This document shows positions 6,207 to 53,610 of a stretch of 64,000 nucleotides of DNA, piece by piece (positions within the stretch are counted from its first letter, which is position 1; each line of letters starts with the position of its first letter). This DNA is from a virus. The notes under the pieces are model-generated. The model worked only from the letters and a program-made list of their open reading frames with translations. It was not told the DNA's origin and made no database searches. Where the stretch lies: the IMG/VR virus record IMGVR_UViG_3300036861_000495, positions 1-64,000 of that record. The stretch is one strand, 5' to 3'. Position numbers and translations under genes: made by a program.

Positions 6207-6904
6207 GACTTGGGCCGCGCGGCCAAGGCATTGGCCAGCAAGAGGTCGATCTCGTCGTCTACATCAACTGATTCCTCCGGCTTCATCAGATAGGGCCGGA
6301 TGTGGCTCGATGAATACCAGTCGGCGGGATGTGTGCGCAGCCAGCCGGTTCGTGCCCAGAGTACGGTTCCGTCATGCTTCAGGCCCCCGGTCGGCCAATC
6401 ATGCGAGTCGGCCAAATCCAGCATACCGCTGCCCGGATCTTGAAAACACATATACCGATAGTCTTGACGAAATGGCACCATGGACATGACGGCATCGTCG
6501 TCGTCCCGCAAGAGCAGCCTCGATTCCACAATGTGGCGCAACGTACGCAGCGGCGAGGTGGGAAGCAACAACAGGACCAGGTCGTGGCCAGCGTACGCAG
6601 GCACCCGCAATCCCAGGTCGTGGCCAACATGCGCTGGCTCGATCAGTTCCTGCACAACTTCCAGCGTCCTGGTTGGCAGCGGCGCGTTTTGCTGGTGCAT
6701 ACCAACGCCAACGGTACCTGAGTACAGGGCGTTATCCCAGACGTCGTAGGAAACAACGATGTCGTTCACGATGCCAGCATGCTTGGCGTCAAACGCTACC
6801 TGGACGGCGAGTTGCACCAGCGACCGGGAGCCGACCCTCAGGAAGTTCTTCCCGGGGAGTCGTTTGGATTCAGCCTTGACAGGAATGATAGCCACAGAAC
6901 TCAT
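6203..6904 (-). CDS. CMP-nonulosonate cytidylyltransferase (NeuA/PseF-like)
   Basis: 233 residues. The N-terminal CTP-binding loop IIPVKAESKRLPGKN matches the NeuA/PseF/KdsB consensus. LLLLPTSPLRTLRHI near residue 112 is the second family motif, and the C-terminal DVDDEIDLL matches the metal-binding end of the family. The enzyme activates a nine-carbon sugar acid with CTP for transfer. It is the first enzyme of the leftward sugar operon and overlaps the dehydratase gene by 4 nt, so the operon order is CMP-transferase, dehydratase, synthase, acetyltransferase, synthase, transferases. PseF, NeuA and LegF types cannot be told apart here. Confidence 0.85.
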   Translation of the reverse strand: MSSVAIIPVKAESKRLPGKNFLRVGSRSLVQLAVQVAFDAKHAGIVNDIVVSYDVWDNALYSGTVGVGMHQQNAPLPTRTLEVVQELIEPAHVGHDLGLRVPAYAGHDLVLLLLPTSPLRTLRHIVESRLLLRDDDDAVMSMVPFRQDYRYMCFQDPGSGMLDLADSHDWPTGGLKHDGTVLWARTGWLRTHPADWYSSSHIRPYLMKPEESVDVDDEIDLLLANALAARPKS

Positions 6905-12840: not shown

Positions 12841-13593
12841 TCAGCTTTGGGTCTTATCGTCGCTACGTGGCGCCTGCGGATCATCCTCGCCGCGTGGCGC
12901 CTGCGGTTCATCTCCGCGGGGCGCGAAATAGATCTTGTCGTCCAGCTTGTCACCGAGGCGTGCGCCCTGCACTCGGTTCAAAGTCGCGGCAGCAGCAGTC
13001 GGCAGCGAGACACCGGCCTGCTTCAGAGCCGCCGCCACCTTCTCATTCTGTGCCAGCAAGAGCAGCGCCGCCTGGGACTGGCCGAGCCCCTGAAGGGAGC
13101 GGGCGTACATCCTCAGCTCGCAGTCACTGGACTTCCACGTCGTGCCAAACGTAATGCCGAAGCCTAAGAGCCCATTCGATCCGCTCCCGCCGCCCGACGT
13201 CGATCCCATGCAAGTCTCAGGCGCGACGGCAAGCGCCGGACCGAAAACTGCCGGCGCAGACGCGGGCGAGATGATCTCGACGGACTGCTTCGACGAGGCA
13301 TCGGACGCGGTAGTGGCCGACGCCGAATTCGTGTTGGTGTTGGTGATCGCGTTGTTGGCGCTACCGCCGTATCCCTGGCCGCCCTCACCGTAGCCACCCT
13401 GGCCGCCCTGGCCGTTGCCACCCTGGCCACCGTTCCCCCCTTGACCGCCGTTTCCGCCGTTGCCGCCCTGACCGCCGTTGCCGCCCTGACCGCCGTTGCC
13501 CTGGTTCTCGGCGAATACGACGGCGGGAGCGAGCACCATCACAAAAGCGAGAACCGCCGCAACCAACCCCACCGACGCCACTTTCCTGTTCAT
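12841..13593 (-). CDS. Secreted Gly-rich repeat protein
   Basis: 250 residues. Residues 1-28 form a classical Sec signal peptide ending VVFAEN. About 45 residues of NGGQGG/NGGNGGQGG repeats follow, then a Ser/Thr/Asn linker and a conserved domain starting PETCMGSTSGGGSG, then FGITFGTTWKSSDCELRMYA, near residues 125-160. The Cys-Met-Gly start plus a later Cys is a pattern in a poorly described phage and prophage protein family. The tail has repeats of QAPRGDD type. Placed at the start of the left-arm leftward operon, facing the rightward gene pair, so it is likely transcribed from the divergent gap. Periplasmic or surface role inferred. Confidence 0.7.
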   Translation of the reverse strand: MNRKVASVGLVAAVLAFVMVLAPAVVFAENQGNGGQGGNGGQGGNGGNGGQGGNGGQGGNGQGGQGGYGEGGQGYGGSANNAITNTNTNSASATTASDASSKQSVEIISPASAPAVFGPALAVAPETCMGSTSGGGSGSNGLLGFGITFGTTWKSSDCELRMYARSLQGLGQSQAALLLLAQNEKVAAALKQAGVSLPTAAAATLNRVQGARLGDKLDDKIYFAPRGDEPQAPRGEDDPQAPRSDDKTQS

Positions 13594-32575: not shown

Positions 32576-34120
32576 TTACACCACGACGTCCAAGCCAATG
32601 TAGAGTTTCATCAGGGATACATCGACAGCCGATGTGGTATGACCCGCAAACGCCCACCTGTAGGCTATCCCCTTCAGGCGCTTCTGCTCGGTCCGCTTCG
32701 GCGACGCCTGACCCAGGACGAACGGTAGCACCGCCGGCAACGTAGCCGGCTGTTCGGCCAGGTTGAAACTGAGAGACTGAGCCAGGCCGCCGTCCCGGTT
32801 CACGTTGATCGTGTGCGTGGCCGCATTTCTGGGATCGTATTCGAGTTGCAGAAACCTGCCAGCAGTCCGGCGCCCGACGGCCTGACCAACGAATTGGGAG
32901 AAGTCCGTGTCCCACAGTTGCCACTCGAATGTGAAGGCGGCACCGTCTTGGCTTCTGTTCGTCCGATCCAGCTCCCACAGTTTGCCGTTTGCATCGACCA
33001 TGGCCGGGATCGCAAAGTTGCCCTCCTTGCGCATGAAGAGCGCCTCATTCCTGTCGCGATCCGAGTATGCCCATTTCTCTCCTGTTTCGGCCGCGTCCAG
33101 AGTGTCCAGGGTGATTCTGATATTTTTTGTCGTCAACCCGGCCTGGTGGCACGCCAACATGGCTACGGCCTTCTGCTCATAGTATACAAGCTGCGCAGTC
33201 GCCAGTTGTGACAGATTGACTCTCTCGCGCATGAACGATCCGAGTTTCTTGGCGGTCAAGTCCGAGGCCCGCACCGAGCCCGATGCTTGTGTCTGAGAAA
33301 GCAGATGCCAGCCTCCGGCCGGATCAACAGACAAAACATCGTCCTCCAGCCCGATCACGTTGTATGGTCCTACGGCACCGGCTGGACCCACCTGGTTCAG
33401 TCCCCATTGCGCTTCTGCCGGATCTCTCGTGTCCAGAAGAAACACGCCACGCGGGTACTTCCAGATGACCAGAAAGCCCTTGTAGGACCACATGGCCACG
33501 ATGTATTCGCCGACACCCGGGAAGACGGGCCGCTGGTATGGAAATGTCAGGAAGTCCTCGTGGTCAAGCTGGGACGATCTGTAGACGCGATCCCCCAGGG
33601 CGCCCCACAAGAAACCGCCGTGGTTGCACAAGCAGAATGGCTGGTTCGCGCCAGCCCAGTCGGCCGGCGGATTGGCGATGGTGGTCATGGCGGCCCCGTC
33701 GCCGGACAGAACACGGACAGCATTGACCCTGTCCGCCATGAACAGTTTTTTGTTGTTCCCAAGCGCCTCGGCGCCAGCCTCGACGAAGTGAGGGATCTGG
33801 CCGGATGTAGTGAGACCCGAGACCAGGGCGGCGCTGTAGGTGCCCTCGCCATCGTCCTTCCGCACGGTGCCATCAGCAAACGCCGTAACGGTGCGCTGCT
33901 GCGTCGACGTCGGAAAGTAGTCGATAGATGCTCTGGCGCTGGAGCCCACCGCGGTGCCTAGCGAGGCGGCCCCACCCTCGGTGCGAAGCGTCCTATCTTC
34001 CATCGACACGTTCCGTAACAGTTTGGCGCCGCCCATCGGAACACGGTCGGCGTTGCGAATGCCGTACACGCCGTCCTTGCCCAGAACGATCGGAACTATG
34101 ATCGAGCTATCCCACGGCAT
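32576..34120 (-). CDS. P22 gp10-like tail hub / packaged-DNA stabilisation protein
   Basis: 514 residues, close to the P22 gp10 size (472). Repeating beta-propeller-like strands are seen, e.g. GNNKKLFMADRVNAVRVLSG, FLWGALGDRVYRSSQLD and IVAMWSYKGFLVIWKYPRG, followed by a C-terminal beta domain. In P22, gp10 sits below gp4 and holds DNA in. The neighbours (gp4-like 36661-37527, tailspike 34359-36641) support the call. Sequence similarity alone is weak. Confidence 0.6.
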   Translation of the reverse strand: MPWDSSIIVPIVLGKDGVYGIRNADRVPMGGAKLLRNVSMEDRTLRTEGGAASLGTAVGSSARASIDYFPTSTQQRTVTAFADGTVRKDDGEGTYSAALVSGLTTSGQIPHFVEAGAEALGNNKKLFMADRVNAVRVLSGDGAAMTTIANPPADWAGANQPFCLCNHGGFLWGALGDRVYRSSQLDHEDFLTFPYQRPVFPGVGEYIVAMWSYKGFLVIWKYPRGVFLLDTRDPAEAQWGLNQVGPAGAVGPYNVIGLEDDVLSVDPAGGWHLLSQTQASGSVRASDLTAKKLGSFMRERVNLSQLATAQLVYYEQKAVAMLACHQAGLTTKNIRITLDTLDAAETGEKWAYSDRDRNEALFMRKEGNFAIPAMVDANGKLWELDRTNRSQDGAAFTFEWQLWDTDFSQFVGQAVGRRTAGRFLQLEYDPRNAATHTINVNRDGGLAQSLSFNLAEQPATLPAVLPFVLGQASPKRTEQKRLKGIAYRWAFAGHTTSAVDVSLMKLYIGLDVVV

Positions 34121-34362
34121 TACTGCTTATCCTTCCCCTTCAGAATGAGGTCGATTTGGGTCTGAAGCGTCTCAATCTGCTTCAGGAGCCGGCTGATAAC
34201 CTGAGCCGCGTCCGTCTCGCCCCTCGTCCGACTAGCGACAAGCTGGTCCAGAGCCACGCGCGCTGTGCGAAGCTGGTCCTCGCAGGTAGCCTGTTGTCCC
34301 CATGTTGGATACGGCAAGAACGTCCATAGCAGGACCAGGATCGGGACTAGGCGGCGCTTCAT
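34120..34362 (-). CDS. Secreted coiled-coil small protein
   Basis: 80 residues from ATG 34362. The signal peptide RRLVPILVLLWTFLPYPTWG is followed by one Cys and a charged helix (AQVISRLLKQIETLQTQIDL). It overlaps the tailspike stop by 4 nt and the gp10-like start by one base. Periplasmic export with helix-driven oligomerisation is the simplest reading. A spanin o-subunit is possible, though no lipobox is clear. Confidence 0.6.
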   Translation of the reverse strand: MKRRLVPILVLLWTFLPYPTWGQQATCEDQLRTARVALDQLVASRTRGETDAAQVISRLLKQIETLQTQIDLILKGKDKQ

Positions 34363-36641
34363 GGCGTACTCTCGTGGATATAGTTCCACCCCATGTAGTC
34401 ATTGAGCGCCTTCATCATCTTCTCCATGTCGATCTTCAGACGTCGGCCGGTGGTGGTCTCGATGGAGTCGAAGATCCATAGGTTCGTGCCCTTTTCGTGG
34501 GGTGACAGCAGAGTAGCGGTGCCCCCGGAGTCCATGACCCGTAGCTCGCCCGCCGTCGAATACAGCGAAATGCCGTTGGCTAGGGTACCGACCGGCGCCG
34601 TCCCATCGAAAAGGTTGAGACACAAGGTGCAACTGGTCGTGGCGCGAGCGGTGTCATTGCCAATAGACACCGAGGTCAGGGTGCCGTTTTTGAGCATGAG
34701 GAGTCCGTTCGTCCGCAACTCCAGCAGAGTACCCCCGACGACACCGCCGGCAATATGAGCCAGTTGGAGAGGTGCCCCGGTCCCGTCAGGTGCAGATAGC
34801 TGCTGCCATCCATCGCCGTTACCCATGAATGTAAGACCGGTCCGCCTGCCGGAACCAGATAGAGCCGTCGAATGAATTGCAAGGAGTGGAATCGACGTCG
34901 CGTAGAGACCGGTCCGATTAGAGTCCGCAACGAATGCTTGGGCACCGAGGCCGGCAGACTTGAAGTACGCGCCCAGCCTTAATCCTGTATTCGAGTATCC
35001 GACCGGACTATCAAGGACAGAGAACTGGCCGCTAGCCCTCGTCAGTCTGGAAATATCCACGGAGCCGGACGTGTGAAGAGAGACTTGCGCCTGCTGACCC
35101 GTGCCAGAATACGTCATGCCCTGTAGGATGAGATCCGAGTTGTTCCCCGCGAACACACCGATCTCGGCATTCTCCACGTTCAGGCCGTAGATACTCACCC
35201 CGCCCGAACTACCGCCCTGGGTTTCCAGCCACACCCCAGCTCGACCGAATGTCGTTGTGCCGTTACTATTACTGACCGTGAGCCGGTGCACCCGTCCGCC
35301 CGTTTTGAGCGTGTTCAGATAGAGTCCTACAGCCACATTGGACGTGGTGTCAGATCTCCATAATTCAGTCTCTGCGATCCTCCAGTTGTCGTTGTAAATC
35401 GTGGAGGAGGTGTCAATGAAACTCGCCCCATGGGTTAGGAATGCACGGATACGAACACGATAGAGGCCGGAGTTCTCATTGGCTCGGTCAGAAAAAACAC
35501 CAATGTTTACAACGTGATTCAGGTTCATCTGAAGGCTTTCCAGCCGAGTGTTGAACGCGAGCGCCGTCCCGCTTGGACTGCCTAGCAGGATTGCAGGCGT
35601 GGCAATCGCGAGAGCCGTCGTGTAGTGGAGTGTCGTCTGTTGTGGTCCGCGGCCACGCAGCGTGACGCCGTTCTGGAGAATCAGTTGTCCGCTAACAACG
35701 CAGTCTCCTGCCGGCAGATCGACGTAATTACCCGCACTCATGTTTCCGATGGTATGGGCGGCCCGGACTAGCGCAGACCTGATGGAGGCCGTATCATCCG
35801 TCACGCCATCGCAGCGTACGCCATGATCGGCGGCATTGATCACATCGTTCGCGGCTACCGGTGGGCGACCGAATAGCAGAGCTCGGATGTGCCGCGTCGT
35901 GGAACTTTGGGGACCGGCTGTGGCGTGGAGTGCCACCGCGAAGGCGCCGGCCGGCGGAGAAGACGAGGTTGCGTGATACCGAGTCGCCGCCGCCAACTTG
36001 GCCGTACCGGAGGCCACCAGGTAGGCGCCGACATGGACGTCGCCAGTGACACCGATGTGGTGGATACCCCAGAAGGCGATCCGGCCATAAGTCGCGTGAG
36101 CGATGCTCTCTATGGCAACTCCGACCATCCCTCTCTGTGCGTAGACGGCCGTCGTGGTGACCCTTGGGCCTGGAGTGTCCTGAGAAGAGGCAGCCGGGCC
36201 ATTGTAGGTGGCCACCGGGGAACCGGGGTCCAACATCACCACGTCGCCAAGAGTGATGCCACCACCGGAGTGGTTCTCGAACCGCATCGGCGGGACATAC
36301 CACTGTGACGATGTGGCACTATCCTGCGATTGAAGGAGACGCAGTATCAGACCGCGTAGACTCTGGATTTCGCCGGTCATAGTCGGGGTCAGGTCCGGAG
36401 CTAGTCCGACCTGGAGCGGCTGACGCGACGCCTGGATTGCTGTCGTGGAGCTGGCGTGACTCGCCATGCAGTCCGGGTTGTCGTTCGTGACGCCAACATT
36501 GGTGAAAGACGTCGTCAAGTCGCCGGCCGTGAGCTGGTCGCCTGTCGACCACGAGCGGAAGATTGAACAATTCCCGTTAACGGCGAAAACAGAACTAGGA
36601 AGGCACAGGAGCACCATCACAGCGAACAGCAGTTTCTTCAT
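34359..36641 (-). CDS. Tailspike-like beta-helix protein with Sec signal peptide
   Basis: 760 residues from ATG 36641 (GGGGG before it). Residues 1-20 are a clean signal peptide (KKLLFAVMVLLCLPSSVFA). An N-terminal beta domain is followed near 290 by HGVRCDGVTDDTASIRSALV, the entry motif of pectate-lyase-3-type right-handed beta-helix spikes. A long Ser/Thr/Asn/Gly-rich solenoid follows, with a helical tail (MEKMMKALNDYMGWN) that could trimerise. Spikes bind or cut host polysaccharide. A cleavable export signal is unexpected for a virion protein assembled in the cytoplasm. Confidence 0.75.
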   Translation of the reverse strand: MKKLLFAVMVLLCLPSSVFAVNGNCSIFRSWSTGDQLTAGDLTTSFTNVGVTNDNPDCMASHASSTTAIQASRQPLQVGLAPDLTPTMTGEIQSLRGLILRLLQSQDSATSSQWYVPPMRFENHSGGGITLGDVVMLDPGSPVATYNGPAASSQDTPGPRVTTTAVYAQRGMVGVAIESIAHATYGRIAFWGIHHIGVTGDVHVGAYLVASGTAKLAAATRYHATSSSPPAGAFAVALHATAGPQSSTTRHIRALLFGRPPVAANDVINAADHGVRCDGVTDDTASIRSALVRAAHTIGNMSAGNYVDLPAGDCVVSGQLILQNGVTLRGRGPQQTTLHYTTALAIATPAILLGSPSGTALAFNTRLESLQMNLNHVVNIGVFSDRANENSGLYRVRIRAFLTHGASFIDTSSTIYNDNWRIAETELWRSDTTSNVAVGLYLNTLKTGGRVHRLTVSNSNGTTTFGRAGVWLETQGGSSGGVSIYGLNVENAEIGVFAGNNSDLILQGMTYSGTGQQAQVSLHTSGSVDISRLTRASGQFSVLDSPVGYSNTGLRLGAYFKSAGLGAQAFVADSNRTGLYATSIPLLAIHSTALSGSGRRTGLTFMGNGDGWQQLSAPDGTGAPLQLAHIAGGVVGGTLLELRTNGLLMLKNGTLTSVSIGNDTARATTSCTLCLNLFDGTAPVGTLANGISLYSTAGELRVMDSGGTATLLSPHEKGTNLWIFDSIETTTGRRLKIDMEKMMKALNDYMGWNYIHESTP

Positions 36642-36660
36642 GTGTGCCCCCATAATGCCA

Positions 36661-37527
36661 TTATGCCCCATAGGCGCCCCGGTAGCCAGTTGGGCTCTTG
36701 GTCTGTAGTCCAGACATCCGCTGTTTCTCGTAGGTAATACACCGCTCGATCATCCGCTCTGCGCGCGCCATCGTGTCATTCTCTCGCCGGTCGAATTTCA
36801 TGCCGATCAGAATAGCCAGCGCGAGCTCGGCCAGGGCCGGACGCCAGAACGTGGGTATGGCCAGCGTAGTAGTCCCGGATGGATCATCCGGCACAAACGA
36901 GTAGAGGTACTCGACCCGCTTCACACTGGTCGGATAACTGGAGAGCCGGATCGTGCGCTGGCCGATGCGGGCGAAGTATTCCGGGATATCGCTCGCGTGC
37001 GGCACCGGGAAGGCTGACCGCATGTACTCTTCGCTCTTCAGCGCCACGAACTTGCTGGTCGGGTACCAGAGGCCATCCACAAAGAGCCCCAGATCAGCAT
37101 TCAGGGTGTACTCGTCCTTGTAGATGGTGCATGCCGTCCCGGCCGCGATGGCCTCTTGGGCCACGTCCAGGGTGACGGCTGTGTCGCCAGCGGTGTGTGC
37201 CGTGACGATGGCGTACCATTCCTTGCCGGTAGGCTTGATCTTCCGGCCCACGATCGAGGTGGCTGGGGCCACGGATAGGGTAGCGGCTACAGCCTCACCG
37301 GCCGCGGCAATCGTCAACGTCGTGGTCGTGATTGAGGCCACCGTGATGAAGGCTCCGACAGGACTCTTCCTCCATTCCAGGATCGGCCAGCGAGTCGCGA
37401 TATCTCGCCAGGCTTCGATGATGGCATCGGACGACAGTGTGAAGAAGTCGCCGGTCAGATCCGTGGAATCTTCGTAGCCCCGCTCCAGAATGTGCGCCTG
37501 AATCTGCGCGAACGTATCGAGTGGCAT
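36661..37527 (-). CDS. P22 gp4-like head-tail adaptor
   Basis: 288 residues. The start TFAQIQAHILERGYEDSTDL followed by DAIIEAWRDIATRWPILEWR is typical of adaptor proteins joining portal and tail hub. A beta insertion (TTTTLTIAAAGEAVAATLSV) lies near residues 68-90. The C-terminal half has RIGQRTIRLSSYPTS and a closing helix (AELALAILIGMKFDRRENDT). It is longer than P22 gp4 because of the insertion. Located between tailspike and other tail genes. Confidence 0.6.
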   Translation of the reverse strand: MPLDTFAQIQAHILERGYEDSTDLTGDFFTLSSDAIIEAWRDIATRWPILEWRKSPVGAFITVASITTTTLTIAAAGEAVAATLSVAPATSIVGRKIKPTGKEWYAIVTAHTAGDTAVTLDVAQEAIAAGTACTIYKDEYTLNADLGLFVDGLWYPTSKFVALKSEEYMRSAFPVPHASDIPEYFARIGQRTIRLSSYPTSVKRVEYLYSFVPDDPSGTTTLAIPTFWRPALAELALAILIGMKFDRRENDTMARAERMIERCITYEKQRMSGLQTKSPTGYRGAYGA

Positions 37528-37530
37528 GGG

Positions 37531-37887
37531 TTACCCCAGTGTTCCGCCGAAGCCAGGTGGAGCAGGCGCGGCCGGCGTAGGCGTTGGCGCTGGCCGCGGC
37601 GCGGCGGCGGCCCCGTCGGGCAGGAGGCCCTTTTCCTGGAGGAGCGAAACCAGCCAGTCGTATAGTTCCTTAGAGAGCGCGTCGGGTAGTTTCTCCGCGA
37701 TGCCTGGCTCTAGTGCGAACCGGTGGACCATCTTCTCTGGTTTACCGTCCCGGGTGCAGACCACGGCTACCTCGCCGCCGGACTGGCCGTCGAGCGGCGC
37801 CCGGAGGATGAACTCCGTGAGCACCATGCCGTCGAAGGGCTGGCTGCCAAGTTCTGGCTGTGATTTGAACGCCCACGCAAGCATCAC
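37531..37887 (-). CDS. Hypothetical tail-region protein
   Basis: 118 residues. A small alpha/beta part (LTEFILRAPLDGQSGGEVAV) is followed by a helix and a Pro/Ala tail (APTPTPAAPAPPGFGGTLG). No signal peptide. It overlaps the upstream secreted gene by 4 nt. Not recognised; could be a tail chaperone or minor structural protein. Confidence 0.5.
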   Translation of the reverse strand: MMLAWAFKSQPELGSQPFDGMVLTEFILRAPLDGQSGGEVAVVCTRDGKPEKMVHRFALEPGIAEKLPDALSKELYDWLVSLLQEKGLLPDGAAAAPRPAPTPTPAAPAPPGFGGTLG

Positions 37888-39149
37888 TGATTACTCCTAT
37901 AGGACATCCCGCCGGCCACCCTGCCGCCGGATACGAAGATACACACCGCGTTACCAGCCACATCTGTTGAAATGAACGGGAACGTCGCCGTTGCCGACAG
38001 TGTCGTGCTGCCGATCGGGATTCCGTTAGCAGCCACAGTCGAGCCCAGCATGGCGCGAGTGTTCGTGCCGCACGTGGTCCCGGTACCCTCCACCAGGGAG
38101 AAGTTTGAGGAGGCCGAACCGCCGGCAATGATCGCGCAGATGAAGATTTTCTGCCCGGCTGCGCCATGAGCGATGATCCCGTCCGTCGACTGCGAGAAGC
38201 CGACGTAGGTGTGGCAGACCAAGTTGTTGCTGCCCGTCCCGCCGGCTATGTGTAGCGGCGCCGCGGCGGTTGTTGCGATATGCGTCACCGAGGAAATATG
38301 ACTGAGCGTCCAGGGCGCGCCTCCCTGGTGGGACAGGACAATCCAGGGAGTTCCTTCGACTGCCTGTACCACCCGCAATGGGATCGGACCGGACGCCACG
38401 TGCGTTACAGAGCTGATGTGGTCGATCGTCCAGAAGGCCGTCGTCGCCTTGTGGGCCGCAACAGGCCAGATTCCTCCTTCAGGAGATTGGACCACTGGCA
38501 ATGGTCGAGCCGCAGCCACATGCTGTACGGAGGAAACGTGATCCACCACCCAGAAGGCACCAACCGCCTTGTGAGCCAAGACCGGGATCGGGAAGGTGGA
38601 GGCATTCAGGTGGGCCACAACTGGTACTGGCGAGCCCTGCGGCGAGATCACCACCGGCACAGGGCCGGTCGACGTGTCGATCGTGGTCCCGCCGGTGGAC
38701 GACACCTGCGGGTCGCCAGACGTCATGATGCCGAAAACCGAGACCGATCCTGGCCCAGAAAACTCCCGCAGGTCGGTACGGAACCAGTACGAACCAGAGA
38801 CGTTACAGCGCCATTGGAGATCCGCGATACCGACGTTGGCCGGCGTGAACTTGACCGACACGTGTGCCGTATTGCCACTGACTGGCAGGCAACGTACGTT
38901 CGTGTAGTGGGTGTTGTTAAGCGATGTCTGGAAGACTACCGTGGCGGCCGGGGAGGCCCCTGTTGGCACGACAATCTGGACGGTAGCTACTGTGAAGCCG
39001 GCGACGTGCGCCACGGTCCCGGTGCTGGCGGTCGTGGCAGCAGACTGTAAGATCCACGTCTTGGCGATGCCCTGGCTGCTGGCTTCTCGACCGGCCATGG
39101 CCAGCGCGAGAACTCCCAGGACCAATGCCAACCAGGAGCGTGGCTTCAT
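37884..39149 (-). CDS. Secreted beta-rich protein with HISSV repeats
   Basis: 421 residues. Signal peptide residues 1-25 (RSWLALVLGVLALAMAGREA). A beta-sandwich-like domain is followed by about four ~30-residue repeats carrying HVSSVQHVA, HISSVTHVA and HISSVTHIA between residues ~185 and 290. The C-terminal domain (GIIAHGAAGQKIFICAI ... FSLVEGTGTTCG ... VCIFVSGGRVAGGMSYRS) is homologous to that of the next gene. Four Cys suggest disulfides, consistent with export. A tail or surface-fibre role is inferred. Confidence 0.6.
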   Translation of the reverse strand: MKPRSWLALVLGVLALAMAGREASSQGIAKTWILQSAATTASTGTVAHVAGFTVATVQIVVPTGASPAATVVFQTSLNNTHYTNVRCLPVSGNTAHVSVKFTPANVGIADLQWRCNVSGSYWFRTDLREFSGPGSVSVFGIMTSGDPQVSSTGGTTIDTSTGPVPVVISPQGSPVPVVAHLNASTFPIPVLAHKAVGAFWVVDHVSSVQHVAAARPLPVVQSPEGGIWPVAAHKATTAFWTIDHISSVTHVASGPIPLRVVQAVEGTPWIVLSHQGGAPWTLSHISSVTHIATTAAAPLHIAGGTGSNNLVCHTYVGFSQSTDGIIAHGAAGQKIFICAIIAGGSASSNFSLVEGTGTTCGTNTRAMLGSTVAANGIPIGSTTLSATATFPFISTDVAGNAVCIFVSGGRVAGGMSYRSNQ

Positions 39150-39157
39150 GGGCCTAC

Positions 39158-40183
39158 TTATCTACCGGTACCGTCCGGATAGGCTCCATAGATAACGATG
39201 CCGGAAACTCTCGAAGTCGCGTTCAGTTTATGCACGCAGAGCGGATTTCCGGCGGTCTGAGTCGACAGCCACGAGGTCGGGTGAACTGACTCCATGATTG
39301 GCAATGCGCTCACGTGCCACACCGCAGCCAGATGAGGCGCTGACGGCCCCGGCCATACACCGAGCGTGCCGGTCTTGCATCCAGCAGTCGTCCCTTCGAC
39401 CAAAACCACCTGTTCGTCCTGCGTCGGCGTGAGGGAATAGCCGCAGATGTAGAGCCTCTGACTGTTGCCTGCGTGGGCAATGATGCTCTCCGGGGCCGAC
39501 GTGACGAAGTTGGCTTGGGAGTGGCAGTAGAATCCGGTCTTGCTGCTGGCGCCTTGGTGATATACAGGCGGCGTCCATCCGCCGCGGATACCGCGAGATC
39601 TAACCACAACAGAGCCGGACGTAAAGTCGATGACGCGTGTACGTGTAGCCTGTGCTCCACCAGTCGGGAATACATAGACTCCATTCGCCGTAATATTCAT
39701 CACTGGCACGCCATTTTGATCAAGTCCGGCCCTCGTCAGAAATGTCGTACTGGCATCGTTAGATGTCTCGAAGACCAGCGAGATTCCTGCGGAAATAGAG
39801 GATACAGCGACTTGCACAGTGCTCACGCCCGCGTCCGTGAGGTTGCCAAAGCCCGATGTGGCCCCAAGCGAGGAGAGAGTCGCGGACACTGTCGGATCTG
39901 ATCCGTAGCTGTTGATGGCGACGTGCGTCACGCTGGAGATGTGGTTGACGGTGGCCACGTGGGCGGACGACACGATCAACGTCGACTGTGGAGAGACGAC
40001 AATCGGGATCGGAGAGGCCGCCGAAACGTGAAGCACCGAAGAGATGTGGCTGACGCCGAAAAGTCCACCTAGAGGTGTCACGTTCATGAAGTCGACCGAC
40101 CGTGTCACTGTGGCAGCGCCCATCAAGAACATGGCCGCCAGAGCGACGGCAAAGACCTTCTCACGCTTCGTCCATGCCTTCAT
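39158..40183 (-). CDS. Secreted paralogue with HISSV repeats
   Basis: 341 residues from ATG 40183, preceded by AAGGAG at six bases; ATG 40198 (TAATG overlap) is the alternative. A signal peptide covers about 1-29 (REKVFAVALAAMFLMGAATV). HISSVLHVS and HISSVTHVA repeats lie near 45-90. The C-terminal half matches the neighbour: ESIIAHAGNSQRLYICGYSL, then VLVEGTTAGCKTGTLG and AGNPLCVH...RVSGIVIYG. The pair probably arose by tandem duplication. Confidence 0.6.
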   Translation of the reverse strand: MKAWTKREKVFAVALAAMFLMGAATVTRSVDFMNVTPLGGLFGVSHISSVLHVSAASPIPIVVSPQSTLIVSSAHVATVNHISSVTHVAINSYGSDPTVSATLSSLGATSGFGNLTDAGVSTVQVAVSSISAGISLVFETSNDASTTFLTRAGLDQNGVPVMNITANGVYVFPTGGAQATRTRVIDFTSGSVVVRSRGIRGGWTPPVYHQGASSKTGFYCHSQANFVTSAPESIIAHAGNSQRLYICGYSLTPTQDEQVVLVEGTTAGCKTGTLGVWPGPSAPHLAAVWHVSALPIMESVHPTSWLSTQTAGNPLCVHKLNATSRVSGIVIYGAYPDGTGR

Positions 40184-40197
40184 CTGGCTCTCCTTCA

Positions 40198-40545
40198 TTA
40201 GCGCGTCTCTTCTAGGATCTGAAGCTGTACGGTTCCGGGCGCGCGACAATCCAGGCTCCCGACGTAGTTGTCGAGCGATAGCGTCGCCCCGGCGTGGAGC
40301 GTGAATGGCTGCGCCTCACCCCTGCTGCTATTCCAGAGAACGACGTGTGTCGTGCCGACATTCTCGATGCTGATAGACAGGCGCTCAGTGTTATGCGAGA
40401 ACACGTTGACCGGGTTGGCCAACAGGCAGTTCACGTTCGCGGTGCTGATGTTCCTGCCCTTCTGAAGCGTAGGCTGAGCGAAGACGCCCTGGCCCGCTAA
40501 GACCAGGGCGCCCACAAATAGCAGTACAGCGAGCGTTCGCTTCAT
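40198..40545 (-). CDS. Small secreted beta protein
   Basis: 115 residues with a textbook signal peptide (KRTLAVLLFVGALVLAGQGV then FAQP). The mature part is a beta domain with two Cys (NVNCLLANPVNVFSHNTERL ... YVGSLDCRAPGTVQL), likely disulfide bonded. It is coupled to the HISSV paralogue by a TAATG and may be an accessory or capping unit of that assembly. Confidence 0.6.
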   Translation of the reverse strand: MKRTLAVLLFVGALVLAGQGVFAQPTLQKGRNISTANVNCLLANPVNVFSHNTERLSISIENVGTTHVVLWNSSRGEAQPFTLHAGATLSLDNYVGSLDCRAPGTVQLQILEETR

Positions 40546-40548
40546 GGC

Positions 40549-40896
40549 TTACCCTTTGTAAAAGGGGCTGTCCGAATTCCAGCCGTAGTCGCTGCCCTTG
40601 CCGATGCTGAGAACGTCACCAGCGAAGTCGCTTTCCTTTTCGGACGAAAGTTTGCCGGCGGCCGTCGGACTTCCGGCGAAGTCGGCGAGGGCCCCATCTT
40701 GCCCCTCGGCAACGTAGACCGCCTCGTCGCTCTCGTTGGTCTTGCTTCGGTTCGCACCGTCGGCGGCCTTGAAGTTGCCGCCCGGCTTCTTGTTCAGATT
40801 CTTGAACTCGCCCACGCCAGCGAACTGGCCGAGGGCCTGCTCTTGACTGCCTGGCTCATATACCGCCCCACCCGTCTTGTCATCCTTGTGGAACAT
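40549..40896 (-). CDS. Hydrophilic hypothetical protein
   Basis: 115 residues, charged and Gly/Ser/Asp rich throughout (QEQALGQFAGVGEFKNLNKK; KLSSEKESDFAGDVLS), with no signal peptide or motif. Similar low-complexity short proteins are found beside capsid genes as minor head proteins. Not recognised. Confidence 0.45.
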   Translation of the reverse strand: MFHKDDKTGGAVYEPGSQEQALGQFAGVGEFKNLNKKPGGNFKAADGANRSKTNESDEAVYVAEGQDGALADFAGSPTAAGKLSSEKESDFAGDVLSIGKGSDYGWNSDSPFYKG

Positions 40897-40937
40897 AGGC
40901 GTTCTCCTCTCCCTGGCAGTGCCAGGATGTCTCTAGT

Positions 40938-41471
40938 TTACACCGCGCCCTGGGCGTCACTTGCGGTCGCGTTCATGCGCACCGCGTTAAAGTCGTCGTC
41001 GGCAACTCTGAGAGCCCGCGTCCGGCGGATGAAATACTCGTCGATCAGCGCAGCGCTTTTCCCGCTCGAAATGATCTCGAATTCCGGATTCCCCTCGGCG
41101 TCCCTGGAACGATGGAGCGCCCAGAGATGGTCCGGGTGTTTGCAGATCACGAACGGCTTGCCGCGGACCTTGTGAATCGGATGGTCCATCGGCATCAGCT
41201 TTTTCTCCAACAACTTGCCGCGCAGGTCGTGACTGGAGAAGTCGTAGGGCGTAAAGCCCGTATCGGCGATATCCTCGGTTACCTCGCCATCGGCGAACTT
41301 CGTGCTGCTGATGGTTCCCTTCAGCGGGAGCTGTCGGTTTCGGCGAGAGCCTAGATAGGCCACTTTGGCTTGGACGACGCCAAGCCTGCCCTCAGTGAGT
41401 CCAGCCCCTACCGTCCGCTCCGCCTGGCTGTCCATAACTTCCTCGATCGTACGATCCGTGATCTTAGGCAT
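40938..41471 (-). CDS. Hypothetical structural-region protein
   Basis: 177 residues from ATG 41471 (AAGGAG seven bases upstream; earlier codons belong to the previous gene). Begins PKITDRTIEEVMDSQAERTV and includes CKHPDHLWALHRSRDAEGNP near 115. No signal peptide. The ribosome site lies just beyond one of the two hairpin repeats that border the O-antigen gene. Function unknown. Confidence 0.5.
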   Translation of the reverse strand: MPKITDRTIEEVMDSQAERTVGAGLTEGRLGVVQAKVAYLGSRRNRQLPLKGTISSTKFADGEVTEDIADTGFTPYDFSSHDLRGKLLEKKLMPMDHPIHKVRGKPFVICKHPDHLWALHRSRDAEGNPEFEIISSGKSAALIDEYFIRRTRALRVADDDFNAVRMNATASDAQGAV

Positions 41472-42774
41472 GAACGTGCTCCTTCCCGCTCGGACCTTTT
41501 CCGGCGGCTTTTTGAGTTGCGCTTCCACGCGCGCCACGCGCTCTACCTAGAGACACCACTGGCTTGTCGAACGCTAGCCAAGTCGTGGCGGATGACTGTA
41601 AGCGAGCTAGAGCGAAGACGGCGATGGCCGCCTGCGCAGGGAGATGGAGCGTCGGGCTTCCGAAACTATTCACCACCGCTACAACAACTACGCCGAGCCA
41701 TGCCATGTCCCATGGTATAGGCCGTTTCCACCAATCCGGCCTGCGGACTTCATTGTTCTTCTTCCAGACTATTCGGGCGGATACGCCGGCCTGAAGAACG
41801 ATCAGCAGGCCCAGCACCAAGCCGATGAGCCCCAACTCGAATAGAAGCTGATATGGCTCGTTGTGCGCCTGGAGCGTTGCGAACGCCTCTATCTTGCCCG
41901 TGACAGCGCCCAGTTTGGCGTTGTATTGCTCTGCCCACACCCGCCAGTCACCGAAGCCCTGGCCGATCAGTGGGTACCGGATCAACTCGGGCCAGACCGC
42001 TTGCCAGACTTCTCGGCGTCCGGAAAGTCTCCACTCGTGGACCGTCATCACCCAGCTTGCTACGCCAGACACCAGACCCAGGACAAAGTATCGAGTCTTG
42101 CGCCCCAGGTCAGGCCAGACAGCCACCACGATGCCAGCGAAGGCCGAGATGACTGGTCCGGCGGACTGGGAGAGCACAACCGGGACCAGGATGGCAATGG
42201 CCGCCAGCGGGCCTAGTAGAGCCCACATGATCGGGAGGGAAAGGGCCATGACCGAACCGTAGTAGTTGGGATGCGTCAGGAGCCCCATGGCTCGGCCCAC
42301 CTGGTCAGGCAACACCCAACCCATCCACGGATAGATGTGGAATAGATTCAGGTAACCCAGTGCCAACTCGAAGCCGATACCGGCAGCTAGGGCCCAGCAG
42401 AAGAGCCGGACGCGGGGGGCGTCCATGTCGCGCGCGACTGCGTAGAGATAGCTGACGAAGGCGGTGAGCACAAGAAGCTGGAGCGAACGCAGCGGAAAGG
42501 CGTTGATGCCCGCACGGACAACTGCCCATGAGATCAGAGCGGCTAACGGGATTGACGCTTTAGCCACCCGGAACATTAGGGCGGCGGCGCCAGCCAGCAG
42601 CAGCCACATGATGGGGATGGCGCGCTCCAGAAGCGGCAACTGGATCATCGGAAACGGGGCGATCGGGGTATAGCCGATGACTGGGACCAGGAGCAGGAAA
42701 CCTAGCGGCAGCCAAAGCCAGCCGACCAGACTGTCAGCGTTGCGCAACTCGAAAGTCTTGGGATTCAGGATCAT
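41464..42774 (-). CDS. O-antigen ligase/polymerase-like membrane protein (Wzy/WaaL)
   Basis: 436 residues with about ten to twelve hydrophobic helices, beginning LVGWLWLPLGFLLLVPVIGY. The large periplasmic loop between late helices contains QGFGDWRVWAEQYNA and LQAHNEPYQLLFELGLIGLV, the usual O-antigen ligase/polymerase signature. The family joins O-units to each other or to lipid A core. It sits between tail genes, bordered on both sides by a conserved hairpin repeat, so it looks like a later-inserted moron gene. Phage-coded polymerases are known to change host serotype. Confidence 0.78.
   Translation of the reverse strand: MILNPKTFELRNADSLVGWLWLPLGFLLLVPVIGYTPIAPFPMIQLPLLERAIPIMWLLLAGAAALMFRVAKASIPLAALISWAVVRAGINAFPLRSLQLLVLTAFVSYLYAVARDMDAPRVRLFCWALAAGIGFELALGYLNLFHIYPWMGWVLPDQVGRAMGLLTHPNYYGSVMALSLPIMWALLGPLAAIAILVPVVLSQSAGPVISAFAGIVVAVWPDLGRKTRYFVLGLVSGVASWVMTVHEWRLSGRREVWQAVWPELIRYPLIGQGFGDWRVWAEQYNAKLGAVTGKIEAFATLQAHNEPYQLLFELGLIGLVLGLLIVLQAGVSARIVWKKNNEVRRPDWWKRPIPWDMAWLGVVVVAVVNSFGSPTLHLPAQAAIAVFALARLQSSATTWLAFDKPVVSLGRARGARGSATQKAAGKGPSGKEHVHA
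41482..41510 (-). repeat. Hairpin repeat copy B, downstream border of O-antigen gene
   Basis: On the minus strand AAGCCGCCGGAAAAGGTCCG continues AGCGGGAAG. It folds as CCGCCGGA, loop AAAGG, TCCG-A-GCGG with one bulged A. It pairs with copy A at 42789-42816. Confidence 0.5.
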
Positions 42775-42788
42775 ACTCTCCCTTTCGT

Positions 42789-42816
42789 CTTCCCCCCGGA
42801 CCTCTTCCGGGGGCTT
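42789..42816 (-). repeat. Hairpin repeat copy A, upstream border of O-antigen gene
   Basis: On the minus strand AAGCCCCCGGAAGAGGTCCG continues GGGGGAAG. It folds as a perfect 8-bp stem CCCCCGGA / TCCGGGGG with loop AGAGG. Relative to copy B one stem pair is switched from C-G to G-C on both sides. Confidence 0.5.
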
Positions 42817-42877
42817 GTTGTGAAGGATGCGGCGACCCCGATGCTCTGAGGCCGCCGCCGTGGTACACAGGCGCCGG

Positions 42878-43795
42878 TTACTGACCAGCCGGCGACCGAT
42901 TTACTGACGTGTGGAACTTCGACCAGTAGATGAACACGTGCGCTCTGATATTGGCGCCCGTCGTAACCGTCGGCGAGTAGGACACGCCGAGGCCGGTGGC
43001 CACATGGATCAGGTACGACGTCTCCATGTAGAAGTTGCCGACTCCAACTCCGTCTCCACCAGACTGGTTGCCGACGTGAAACTTCAGTGCGAGACCTCGA
43101 TTTGATACGAACGCCTGGCTGGCCGTCTGATTGGCTAGCTGTACGATGCCAGGGCGAATCCACTCGGCCGCACCAGAACCGAAGGTACCGGTGTGTAGGC
43201 CGACCATGTTGACAAGGGCGTTGTTGACGGCGACGGCGTGATTACCCAGGAATCCCACGCTGAGATGGCTCGTCTGTGAGCCGGTATTCGGCGTGAGGTT
43301 CTGGATGATGACGTCCGTAATCATCGCGCCACTTGGCAGGAAGATACCGCTGTCTGACTGGTACGCCGTCGCCGCAGCGTTGACGGCGAATCGAGAGATG
43401 TTGCGCGCAGCGTCACGCGGAATGACGATCTTGTGCGTGAACCGGTCCAGCTTGCCCACGCTCGTGGAACCACCGTACGCGTAGAAGCAGGTCAGGTCGA
43501 CCGGATCGGCGATGGTGCTGTAGAAGTGGAGCCGCCCATTGGAGTCGCTGAACGTCGGATTGTCCTTGGCGGTCGTGAGAGCCGTTGTGGCATGCAACAG
43601 AGCGGAGCCGTGGATGTTCGTCCTGTAGACCGAGCACTGCACGTCGCCAACACCGGCCGTGTTGGTCTTGTAGACCCGGCCCTGTTCGTCGACCGTGGTC
43701 CACCAGAAGTAGAACGGGATCTGCGCCGAAGCAGGAGCCGCGGCGAAGAGGACAAGGGCGGCCAGCGAGGCCGCCAGCCACTTGAACATCTTCAT
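42878..43795 (-). CDS. Secreted tail-region beta protein
   Basis: 305 residues from ATG 43795 (AAAGGGGG before it). Signal peptide: FKWLAASLAALVLFAAAPAS ending AQ. Near residue 35 VYKTNTAGVGDVQCSVYRTN followed by SDSNGRLHFYSTIADPVDL recalls the tail-fibre N-terminal module seen in many phages. The C-terminal half is a beta domain (SHLSVGFLGNHAVAVNN; GVGNFYMETSYLI). The gene follows the capsid gene directly, so a surface or decoration protein is likely. Export signal again unexpected. Confidence 0.65.
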   Translation of the reverse strand: MKMFKWLAASLAALVLFAAAPASAQIPFYFWWTTVDEQGRVYKTNTAGVGDVQCSVYRTNIHGSALLHATTALTTAKDNPTFSDSNGRLHFYSTIADPVDLTCFYAYGGSTSVGKLDRFTHKIVIPRDAARNISRFAVNAAATAYQSDSGIFLPSGAMITDVIIQNLTPNTGSQTSHLSVGFLGNHAVAVNNALVNMVGLHTGTFGSGAAEWIRPGIVQLANQTASQAFVSNRGLALKFHVGNQSGGDGVGVGNFYMETSYLIHVATGLGVSYSPTVTTGANIRAHVFIYWSKFHTSVNRSPAGQ

Positions 43796-43817: not shown

Positions 43818-44798
43818 TTAGGCACCCAGGTTGGTGCGGGCCGTGCGAAGCGCGATGACGGCGTGATCTTGGGCTGAGAAGACCGATTTCTTGAAGCCCC
43901 AAATCGCACCTATCGCATAGCCAGGGCTGTTCCCGTAATCGAATTCCTTCTCCCACGCGAACGGTCGGCGGCCCCAAGCGAAGAGACCGGCCTGCATTCC
44001 GAGGAAGTAGTTGGAGGCGTAGGCTACGGCGCCAGCGCCACCATCGTTCGCCGCTGGAACCTTCTCGTGCGCGTGAATGACCACGCTTCTCCACATGCCG
44101 TACCGGCCCGTGAAGATCTTGTTCTCGTCGCCGCGGAGACCGGCATCACGTTGCGTCGCGTGCCACGTGGTGTCCTGTTCCAGGTCGAACGCGACGTCGG
44201 TATGGATGACGAGGACGAAGTACGCCTCGCCTGCGATCTTGACCGGCCAGATCTTCGGATCGGCCTTCGCCGCACGACCCACACAGCGGTCGATGAGGCT
44301 CGGGGTGATGACGTCGGCAGCCGTGAGGTTGCCCAGAGTGGTCCGGTTGCCGCCGAACTGGATGGTGCTGGAGTTGGTGTCGATCTTCGTGAAGATGTCG
44401 TCGTCGATCACCTCCGCCAGCCACGTCTTCAGGTGACCCTTGGCCTGGGTCGGCTGGTCGTAGGCGGTGCGCTTCATGGAAAGCTGACCCTTCAACCGGA
44501 CGGCGTTGCGCCGCTGGTCGAGAGTCACGGTGTCCTGGAAGGTGTTCAACAGCTCTTCCGAGCCTTCCAGTTGGTTATCTCCCGAGACGCCCGCGCCCGT
44601 CAACTTCCGGGATAGCGAGTAATTGTAGACGTCGCCGGGCATTCCCTCCAGATCACGCCTCACTTCGATGATGGCGTTCTGGTCATTTTCCTTCATGAAC
44701 CTACCCCAGAAAATTTCTCTTGGGAGTTCGACCCATAGGCGCTTCGCCCAGAGCTGAACCCTCTCGCTCGATGCCGTCGTGTACTCTGTCTCCGCCAT
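43818..44798 (-). CDS. Major capsid protein, N4-gp56 family
   Basis: 326 residues. Matches family landmarks: WVELPREIFWGRFMKENDQN then IIEVRRDLEGMPGDVYNYSL near 25-60, GVSGDNQLEGSEE near 70-82, VTLDQRRNAVRLKGQLSMKR near 90-112 and FKKSVFSAQDHAVIALRTAR at the end. N4-gp56 proteins have the HK97 capsid fold. The first 16 residues, MAETEYTTASSERVQL, closely match the start of a 77-residue protein at 53163-53396. The scaffold gene lies just upstream and a good ribosome site (AAGGAGG) precedes. Confidence 0.9.
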   Translation of the reverse strand: MAETEYTTASSERVQLWAKRLWVELPREIFWGRFMKENDQNAIIEVRRDLEGMPGDVYNYSLSRKLTGAGVSGDNQLEGSEELLNTFQDTVTLDQRRNAVRLKGQLSMKRTAYDQPTQAKGHLKTWLAEVIDDDIFTKIDTNSSTIQFGGNRTTLGNLTAADVITPSLIDRCVGRAAKADPKIWPVKIAGEAYFVLVIHTDVAFDLEQDTTWHATQRDAGLRGDENKIFTGRYGMWRSVVIHAHEKVPAANDGGAGAVAYASNYFLGMQAGLFAWGRRPFAWEKEFDYGNSPGYAIGAIWGFKKSVFSAQDHAVIALRTARTNLGA

Positions 44799-47480: not shown

Positions 47481-49658
47481 TTAACCTACGCCGTGAGGAG
47501 GTGGAGTAGGGGCCGGGGGTGGAGCTACTGTCTGGGGTGTTTCTCCACGGGTCGAGTTTACTCCGGAAACCCCTTGAGTCGGTGGCGGAAGAGCCGGCGG
47601 CCCGCCTCCTCCCGGCATACCAGGTGGACCTCCCGGCGGTGGACCACCGATACCCTGAGCCATCTGTAGCTGCTTCACGCGCGCCAGCAGTTCTGGCTTG
47701 TCCGGCAAACCGTCCGTCAGCCGAATCACGGTGTCCATGACAACAGGGAGTATTGCGGGCATCCTTTCGACCATCTTCATGAGCGTCTCCAGCGCCTCGG
47801 ATCTGGCCGTCGGACTGGACGGCGTTTCCGAGAGCACCAGATCCCACTTGAACTTGTCGACGTTGGCCAGGATTTCTGGTTTGGACGGGTCGATGGCTGC
47901 CAGTTTCCGCCATTCCTTTACGCTGTTGCGGCGCTCGTCCTTGTCTTTGACCCGATTGACGGCAGGTGGGTTAAGATGCACCATCACCGATGATCCGAAA
48001 TCATTGGTCAGCCTGACGTACTCTTCCTTGGTAAACTTCTGCTGGATACGCCGTCCGAGTTGTCGGCCGAAGATTTCTCCAGACCACCGGTTCTGGTCGA
48101 AGACCTCAGTAGCGATGATCTGTCCCTGCGCCTGCCGGCGGGCTATTGCGATACCAGAAGCGGTCTCGCCACCGCGTTGTCCGAGCAGATCCGAGTTGAC
48201 CCCTGACGTCTCCTTGATCGACACCTTCATTTGGTCAGCGAGCCCCACGATCAGACGTGTCAAATCGGCGATGCCTTGCGGCACGTCCCATCCAGGCGGC
48301 TGCTTTCCGACACGGTAGTAGATGACTCCCTCGCCCAGAGGATCGGTCATGAGCCCCTCGGACTGCGGCGAGATACTGTTTTCCTCCGCCACGCGGCGTA
48401 TTTTCCCCCACCTGCTCACCAGGTCAATAGCTTGACTCACGCGCTTGTTCTCGACCCGTTGGGCGTCTCGAAGGTCTCTAACGATGCCGCGGATATCGTC
48501 GGCCGTGCGCTCTCCTATGACCAGCGTGTACGGATAGCTTTGCCGGTCATTGACGTAGGGAGTCTCGTCCTCTTCCAGCGTCACGTTGACCGCCGGCAGG
48601 ACGGTGCCGGTCCGCATGTATCGCCGCACCCGCTTGATGGCCTGTACTTGATCCCCGCTCGCCCTCTGGGAGTCGATGGCGAACTGGCCCGGTTTGGGCA
48701 TGTCTTCTGGCACCTCTTCCAACTTGCCGGAATCCTTATGGTAGAGGTGCCACCGTGTCTCATAGTCCGGGTACCACGCCTCTACAACCAGGACTCGCTG
48801 TAGCTGCTTGTCGTAGAAGTACCGATCGGCATTCAGTTCGTCGACGTGTGGCGACACGACACCGCCGTAAGCATCTCCGGAGTATCCGCGCGACACGCCG
48901 CCTGTCTGCGACAGGTCTGCGAGGATCTGATTCAGGTCGCCAACGGCTGCTTCAATTTCCTTTTTCCGCTCATCGTACTGGGCAATGACGTCTCTAATCC
49001 AGACCCACCGGTATCGGAGAAAGTGGCTCGCATCAGAGAAGTCCGGTTGAGTCCAGTGAGGGTCCCAGATGCAGTCCCGGCCCGGGGTGAGCGCTTCCCC
49101 TACTATCTCCCCCGAGATGGGGTTGTCGTCCCAGGTCATGCCACAATGGAGTACAGACATACCACGGATGAGCGCCTGCTTGAAAGCGATCGAACGCATC
49201 TCCGGTATGTGGATGTTGTTGGAGACGAACTTGAACAGCCAGCTCATGATCTTGGCGTCGTCTTCGTCCTCTTCACCTTGCGGCAGAATCTTCGTGTCGA
49301 AGCGCGTCTGGCGCTCCAGACCAGTCAGGACCTTGATGATCGGCTTGATCTGATTGATGCTGATAGTGGCGCGCTTTTGCAGGCGCAGCGAGTCGTAGTC
49401 GTCCTTGTTGCCGTTGTCGTCGACCCACTGATGGGCGCCGCCGATATAAAACCCCTCGTCTATGTCGGCCTGCTTCGTGTACGTAGACCAGAGCTGGTGG
49501 CTGACGTCAGAGAGAAACCACGTACGGACTCTGCGGGCAAAATCGGAGTCGTTCTTACCGGGGCCGTCGTCTGAAGTGCTGGCCGCGCCGCCGGCAACAC
49601 CAGCCCCAGGAGGTGCAACCCCCTCGGCCAGACTTAGAAGATCGGCGCCCTGGGTCAT
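47481..49658 (-). CDS. Portal protein, P22-like
   Basis: 725 residues, the P22 gp1 size (725). LWSTYTKQADIDEGFYIGG then QWVDDNGNKDDYDSLRLQKR followed by ISINQIKPIIKVLTGLERQT is the P22-type N-terminal landmark. Later RFDTKILPQGEEDEDDAKIM and FKQALIRGMSVLHCG belong to the stem region. The C-terminus is a helical barrel followed by Gly/Pro-rich linker. It forms the dodecameric DNA channel at one capsid vertex. Upstream is a 63-residue basic protein, downstream a zinc-ribbon protein. Confidence 0.88.
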   Translation of the reverse strand: MTQGADLLSLAEGVAPPGAGVAGGAASTSDDGPGKNDSDFARRVRTWFLSDVSHQLWSTYTKQADIDEGFYIGGAHQWVDDNGNKDDYDSLRLQKRATISINQIKPIIKVLTGLERQTRFDTKILPQGEEDEDDAKIMSWLFKFVSNNIHIPEMRSIAFKQALIRGMSVLHCGMTWDDNPISGEIVGEALTPGRDCIWDPHWTQPDFSDASHFLRYRWVWIRDVIAQYDERKKEIEAAVGDLNQILADLSQTGGVSRGYSGDAYGGVVSPHVDELNADRYFYDKQLQRVLVVEAWYPDYETRWHLYHKDSGKLEEVPEDMPKPGQFAIDSQRASGDQVQAIKRVRRYMRTGTVLPAVNVTLEEDETPYVNDRQSYPYTLVIGERTADDIRGIVRDLRDAQRVENKRVSQAIDLVSRWGKIRRVAEENSISPQSEGLMTDPLGEGVIYYRVGKQPPGWDVPQGIADLTRLIVGLADQMKVSIKETSGVNSDLLGQRGGETASGIAIARRQAQGQIIATEVFDQNRWSGEIFGRQLGRRIQQKFTKEEYVRLTNDFGSSVMVHLNPPAVNRVKDKDERRNSVKEWRKLAAIDPSKPEILANVDKFKWDLVLSETPSSPTARSEALETLMKMVERMPAILPVVMDTVIRLTDGLPDKPELLARVKQLQMAQGIGGPPPGGPPGMPGGGGPPALPPPTQGVSGVNSTRGETPQTVAPPPAPTPPPHGVG

Positions 49659-53406: not shown

Positions 53407-53610
53407 CTACCGGGGTTCGTCCATGAAAGGCGCCTTGATGTTGTTCTCGATAGATTCCCGGGTGATGGGCGAACAGAGAAACAGATTGTCTCCATCACGG
53501 TCTACGCCTGGGTAACAGACCGTGTACGGCGTGGTCTGTGTAGTGGCGCATCCGGTCAGGGCCAGAGTCACTGCCATTCCTACCGCGAACCACAACCAGA
53601 ATACTCTCAT
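53407..53610 (-). CDS. Small lipoprotein
   Basis: 67 residues. WLWFAVGMAVTLALTGC is a signal sequence ending in a lipobox (LTGC), so the mature Cys would be lipidated. The short mature part has two further Cys. It overlaps the GT2 gene by an ATGA. Superinfection exclusion or an outer spanin-like role are possibilities; it is far from the lysis genes. Confidence 0.65.
   Translation of the reverse strand: MRVFWLWFAVGMAVTLALTGCATTQTTPYTVCYPGVDRDGDNLFLCSPITRESIENNIKAPFMDEPR

Follow-up and report, generated by a model that had tools for sequence, protein, structure and literature searches.

The assembly of tailed phages is regarded, in the textbook view, as a cytoplasmic process, and the question raised by the locus described here is what purpose Sec-type signal peptides could serve on proteins encoded among the structural genes of such a phage. 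The DNA analysed (the window, 64 kb) is a portion of an IMG/VR virus record totalling 67.8 kb; all the genes discussed lie on its minus strand and are read from the major capsid protein (MCP) gene (44798) towards the DarB gene (15731). Judged by its portal, its MCP and a 4367-aa DarB-like protein, the virus is a podovirus and a distant relative of the Bcep22-like phages. In fact, these phages (Lessievirus: BcepMigl, BcepIL02, DC1, JC1) have homologous portal, MCP and giant DarB-like proteins and likewise place adhesive or fibre genes between the MCP and the internal virion proteins, but portal and MCP identity to the window amounts to merely 25-31%, and the comparison with BcepMigl gave no clear match for the window's other structural proteins tested. 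The virus is not assigned to the genus Lessievirus, since a shared structural module with fibres was not found. The search of genome contigs with the MCP returned distant relatives only, and no cultured phage with the same gene set was found.

A sequence-only reading of the window had proposed that six genes (34120, 34359, 37884, 39158, 40198 and 42878, named by their lower coordinate) begin with Sec-type signal peptides, and had named signal-peptide prediction as one check. All genes of the window were run through a predictor combining a von Heijne-type cleavage matrix with an h-region rule and an n-region charge rule. On 65 E. coli K-12 genes its strong rule recovered 10 of 13 known signal peptides and none of 52 cytoplasmic proteins (any alternative start allowed), a validation made on E. 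coli alone. The proposal was borne out, five of the six genes passing the strong rule with a positive n-region, a hydrophobic h-region and small residues at -3/-1; their cleavage scores were 9.5 (34359), 10.4 (37884), 9.5 (39158), 8.8 (40198) and 12.4 (42878). In the sixth, 34120, hydrophobicity and charge are fine and the cleavage score alone (3.6) is borderline, failing the strong rule. After shuffling of residues 2-40, the rule was still passed in just 0.2-4% of cases. Chance hydrophobic starts are thus ruled out by the E. coli controls, by the shuffles and by the conservation described below. Moreover, six of the seven clear signal-peptide genes of the window fall within one 11-gene block among 59 genes (p 7e-5, for a block picked post hoc). 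The paired cysteines noticed earlier in several of these genes were also recovered, the mature proteins of 34359, 37884, 39158, 40198 and 42878 carrying 6, 6, 4, 2 and 2, respectively; 34120, with a single Cys early in its mature part, is the sole one of the six with an unpaired count. Three further candidates fared differently: 12841 has a clear signal peptide and 53407 is supported as a lipoprotein by its lipobox and its orthologue in the closest relative (L001), while 54317 was not convincing, with a score of 3.7 and five Cys beyond the predicted site. The 12841 gene lies near the lysozyme gene, and its family, phrog_20531, is perhaps a widespread exported phage family.

Table 1. Predicted features of the window bearing on the export of virion-related proteins
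Feature	Position	Strand	Characteristics
Pse-type nonulosonic-acid cluster	2920..6904	-	two NeuB/PseI-like, PseB-like, PseF-like, PseH-like; all under NCBIfam equivalog cut-offs
Further exported protein, Gly-rich, 2 Cys	12841..13593	-	phrog_20531; signal peptide; outside tail block
DarB-like protein, 4367 aa	15731..28834	-	no signal peptide; connects window to Bcep22-like phages
Tail hub / head-closure-type protein (by position)	32576..34120	-	no signal peptide; adjoins spike; orthologues beside spike in L008, L009
Small exported coiled-coil protein, 80 aa	34120..34362	-	signal peptide MKRRLVPILVLLWTFLPYPTWG; start overlaps spike stop
Tailspike	34359..36641	-	phrog_18522 tail protein 2e-7; PF12708 1.4e-8; signal peptide, 6 mature Cys
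Core structural gene, adaptor by position	36661..37527	-	no signal peptide; equivalent place in L008, L009, L002
Exported fibre-like protein	37884..39149	-	signal peptide; HISSVTHV-type repeats; C-terminal four-Cys jelly-roll-like domain
Exported fibre-like protein	39158..40183	-	signal peptide; HISSVTHV-type repeats; four-Cys C-terminal domain, as in 37884
Small exported protein, 2 mature Cys	40198..40545	-	signal peptide MKRTLAVLLFVGALVLAGQGVFA, then QPTL
Polytopic Wzy_C-family membrane enzyme	41464..42774	-	PF04932 above curated cut-off; invariant Arg, His (SGRxxVW, QAHNE)
Exported protein directly downstream of MCP, FWW family, 2 mature Cys	42878..43795	-	signal peptide
Major capsid protein	43818..44798	-	phrog_334 9.7e-65; no signal peptide; anchor gene for finding relatives
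Portal	47481..49658	-	no signal peptide
Small lipoprotein	53407..53610	-	LTGC lipobox; conserved in L001

The signals are not distributed over the structural proteins at large. Within the block and its surroundings the core structural proteins lack them (portal, MCP, 36661, 32576, 30787, 28850 and DarB), so that the earlier suggestion of exported tail-region proteins stands for the appendage-type ones and falls for the core. Among the former, 34359 is predicted to be cleaved between MKKLLFAVMVLLCLPSSVFA and VNGNC, and its signal peptide is followed by an N-domain (CSIFRSWSTGDQLTAGDLTTSF...C) and a pectate-lyase-like body; this beta-helix body and its place in the structural operon mark it as a tailspike- or fibre-type protein. 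It resembles the pectate-lyase-type tailspikes (PF12708; phrog_18522) in its body and its fibre-style N-domain, while its Sec-type signal and its six mature Cys set it apart from them. The N-domain, with an invariant Cys pair and the motif FRSW..GDQLTA, follows immediately on the signal peptide in each of five genomes, and searches of INPHARED phages and bacterial genomes gave no significant match to it; the spike gene adjoins that of the tail hub in L008 and L009, and lies between the adaptor and hub genes in the window. In 37884 and 39158 the repeats are seen directly in the sequence, and such a repeat shaft within the structural operon likewise marks them as fibre-like. The 39158 gene probably starts at 40183 (MKAW, with AAGGAGA upstream), and its cleavage site is the least clear. 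The MCP-FWW gene order is kept in L001, L010, L011, L012 and L013; the AlphaFold model of the FWW protein was uninformative (pLDDT 34). Small genes encoding a signal peptide and a coiled coil, like 34120, were also seen near fibre genes in other records (L008:16822-17076, L011:3671-3928, L056:2173-2421, L049:3241-3594), and these recurrent proteins could be periplasmic fibre partners or spanin-like proteins.

The signals are conserved in the relatives. The MCP of L001 is 94% identical to that of the window, and the clade search by MCP added L008-L013 at 58-47% identity. In L001 the counterparts of 42878, 40198, 39158, 37884 and the spike all keep a signal peptide, and such signals are still present in L008-L013, where MCP identity falls to about 47%, with the proviso that gene starts in metagenomic contigs are predicted and most of the relatives' contigs are fragments. 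Between the window and L001 the n- and c-regions are preserved in character, and the fast drift with kept hydrophobicity is clearest in 40198 and 34359: all ten signal-peptide changes in 40198 replace one hydrophobic residue by another, with 7 of 93 mature positions changed (92% conserved), and so do 12 of the 14 changes in the spike. This pattern bears on the possibility that the N-terminal segments are not cleavable Sec signals, being instead inner-membrane anchors or pieces that a phage protease cuts off while the particle assembles in the cytoplasm. Propeptides and membrane-piercing ejection proteins do exist in phages, and the cleavage sites of 39158 and 34120 are indistinct; nevertheless, such rapid hydrophobic-to-hydrophobic drift typifies signal peptides, most members agree with signal peptidase I substrates in the charge of the n-region, the length of the h-region and their AxA-type sites, and the even Cys counts and conserved Cys pairs suit an oxidising compartment. 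This explanation is therefore highly improbable, and export of the appendage-type proteins by Sec, as their N-termini predict, is very probable indeed.

The cysteines were examined across the clade. The number of mature Cys is even in 24 of 24 exported proteins, as against 99 of 223 Cys-containing non-exported ones; the 24 comprise fibre-, spike- and FWW-type proteins, with 12841 and the L010 esterase counted among them, whereas membrane proteins, uncertain calls and the small coiled-coils, with 0 or 1 Cys, were set aside. Four additional exported proteins of G006 carry 6, 2, 14 and 2 mature Cys, all even. Since many of the compared proteins are related (orthologues), the p-values overstate independence. 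In addition, a four-Cys C-terminal domain is common to 37884, 39158, a protein of L009 and one of the unrelated phage L050, with three of the four Cys invariant across all six sequences. It always occurs in signal-peptide proteins where the start is visible, the L009 protein being hardly more than signal peptide plus domain. The domain is modelled as a beta-sandwich (pLDDT 67), and the folds that match it best belong to small proteins from uncultured tailed phages (best BFVD E 1.6e-4, a modest value), with no significant match in the PDB. Disulfide formation in the periplasm is, by these sequence patterns, a strongly supported prediction for the exported appendages.

It could be argued that the signal peptides are a general trait of the Bcep22-like lineage, but this was ruled out by BcepMigl, MW202615 and the distant MCP relatives. 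The fibres and other structural proteins of BcepMigl lack convincing signal peptides (weak spurious flags only), and the structural genes of MW202615 gave no signal-peptide flags. Flagged genes numbered 41 of 370 in the clade versus 12 of 365 in twenty more distant MCP relatives, both counts coming from an automatic caller and including some false calls; the latter 12 are apparently lysis genes, membrane genes or spurious ORFs. Two distant MCP relatives, L066 (a Nitrosomonas MAG contig) and L002, have a signal-peptide gene immediately after the MCP. In the uncultured sister clade the signal peptides sit on the spike, on fibre-like proteins and on those encoded next to the MCP, and the core virion proteins are without them; the signal-bearing fibre types of the sister genomes comprise fibre-like proteins of 1017 and 1425 aa, an adhesin-like protein rich in Gly and proteins with QPVSGTV repeats.

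This last family provides the strongest independent test in this analysis. A search with L056:2761-4056 yielded 79 loci and 69 distinct 5'-complete proteins, 14 of which have a signal peptide. The median Cys content per 1000 aa is 9.9 in these and 1.4 in the 55 without it, an about seven-fold difference (p 2.7e-6), and the fact that the Cys-rich pattern tracks the signal peptide inside one family fits an oxidising compartment. Runs of exported fibre-like genes were found in L050, L077, L078, L085, L143 and L156, unrelated phages among them having such runs in fibre position.

The export signals and paired Cys of the spike and fibre-like proteins, in this phage as in many others, make it probable that these proteins leave the cytoplasm for their maturation. 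Of the two interpretations offered by the sequence-only reading, surface proteins of the infected cell or an assembly route that passes partly through the periplasm, the latter is favoured and the former stays as its rival; the export as such has strong support. On balance, we favour as slightly more likely than not a system divided between compartments, in which a cytoplasmic core virion is joined at or after lysis by Sec-exported, oxidised appendages. The portal, capsid and connector, the tail hub and the internal proteins would come together in the cytoplasm, as they do in podoviruses otherwise. The spike, the four-Cys fibre-like proteins, the FWW protein and the small partners would cross the inner membrane by means of cleavable Sec signals and form their disulfides in the periplasm, where the neighbouring Wzy_C-family enzyme may glycosylate them. 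Holin lesions and endolysin would then bring particles and periplasmic appendages together, and the mature appendages would dock through their N-terminal domains, completing the virion outside the cytoplasm. More speculatively, early export of a glycan-cutting spike could strip receptors off the producing cell. Attachment to virions is inferred from the protein families, the spike N-domain, the gene order and the lack of any other fibre candidate in the structural block, where no recognisable cytoplasmic fibre was found. A point against this assembly route is that appendages must meet particles during or after lysis, facing dilution.

The rival interpretation takes the exported proteins not as virion parts but as late envelope or secreted adhesins, receptor-masking or receptor-destroying proteins or superinfection blockers of the infected host, acting with the Wzy_C and sugar genes. 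The signal peptides and even Cys counts indicate export as such; Wzy_C, the Pse-type genes and two glycosyltransferases resemble surface-glycan modification; L010 encodes an exported PHB-depolymerase-like esterase, an enzyme type without a known virion role; and the annotated tail fibres of the Bcep22-like phage JC1 are missing from the proteins listed from purified virions (PMC9144972). Nevertheless, this interpretation would leave the structural block without a recognisable receptor-binding protein, the spike has a fibre-like N-domain and sits among core virion genes, unrelated phages carry their runs in fibre position, and the late operon position by the MCP suggests expression shortly before lysis, rather late for a surface change to be of benefit. 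We consider it rather unlikely, while the contrast between signal-free core genes and signal-bearing spike and fibre genes, together with the spike N-domain, its tail-hub neighbour and the missing cytoplasmic fibre, would favour assembly. The L010 esterase (L010:610-1731) begins with a signal peptide, contains 12 Cys and is similar to extracellular PHB depolymerase/esterase; its gene adjoins the end of a fibre-like gene.

A further explanation, compatible with either interpretation, starts from glycosylation: the exported proteins would be substrates of the adjacent Wzy_C enzyme (in L002, of a polytopic TPR protein), which would transfer a lipid-linked Pse-type sugar. The order MCP, exported FWW protein, Wzy_C is conserved in six records (window, L001, L010, L011, L012 and L013), and 41464 has orthologues in L001, L010, L011 and L013, with a weaker Wzy_C match near the end of L008's contig (G006:86786-87253). 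It shares the domain and the conserved Arg and His with the Wzy_C family (O-antigen ligases, Wzy polymerases, PglL-type O-oligosaccharyltransferases), and departs from it in lying within a structural operon, where its neighbours encode exported proteins of the phage. In the same place, L002 (L002:11214-13593) has, after the MCP, two small signal-peptide proteins and then an unrelated polytopic protein with C-terminal TPR repeats, which we take to be possibly TMTC-like. Pse-type genes accompany the system in the window and in L001, whose contig holds three NeuB-family genes. Against this, L009 encodes many exported fibres and no Wzy_C within the 35 kb examined, the FWW family being absent there; Pse-type genes occur in only 2 of 9 records; and O-antigen modification fits the enzyme family as well as protein glycosylation does, NCBIfam naming no subfamily for 41464 and the search of PDB sequences giving no useful match. 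Glycosylation as the primary explanation is accordingly rather improbable.

Partial parallels to the favoured assembly route are available. The coat and adsorption proteins of filamentous phages also are virion proteins with signal peptides, maturing at or beyond the inner membrane, but those phages are extruded through the envelope, whereas the window belongs to a tailed phage with a lysozyme gene, in which the capsid would be kept cytoplasmic and the appendages alone exported. Phage endolysins with Sec or SAR signals, such as fOg44 Lys44 and the SAR endolysins, similarly use the host Sec before lysis (PMC6116005); theirs are lysis enzymes, while those of the window are appendage-type proteins. 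In rumen Bacteroides phages, signal peptides were noted by the authors without follow-up (PMC5723332). In the open-access full text searched, tail fibres or spikes that tailed phages export were not described, a coverage that mostly leaves aside subscription papers, including the original Bcep22 description. A further possibility, somewhat less likely than not, is a widespread, apparently undescribed tailed-phage strategy, arisen or spread in several unrelated groups, by which Sec-exported, disulfide-bonded and perhaps O-glycosylated adhesins might be mounted during or after lysis. Should a large set of uncultured phages mature its receptor-binding proteins in the periplasm, the host Sec, Dsb and glycosylation machineries would take part in building the virion and in recognising the host, such proteins of many environmental phages may be passed over because they look like exported proteins of bacteria, and spikes of this kind would need export and oxidation when produced in the laboratory. 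The combination of a fibre domain, a signal peptide and an even Cys number provides a sequence rule for finding exported fibres.

As regards the remainder of the window, HNH or endonuclease VII-type genes are scattered in the late region (46584-47039, 52225-52638 and 54658-55314), and a tRNA-Met (CAT) gene lies at 55164-55242 on the minus strand.
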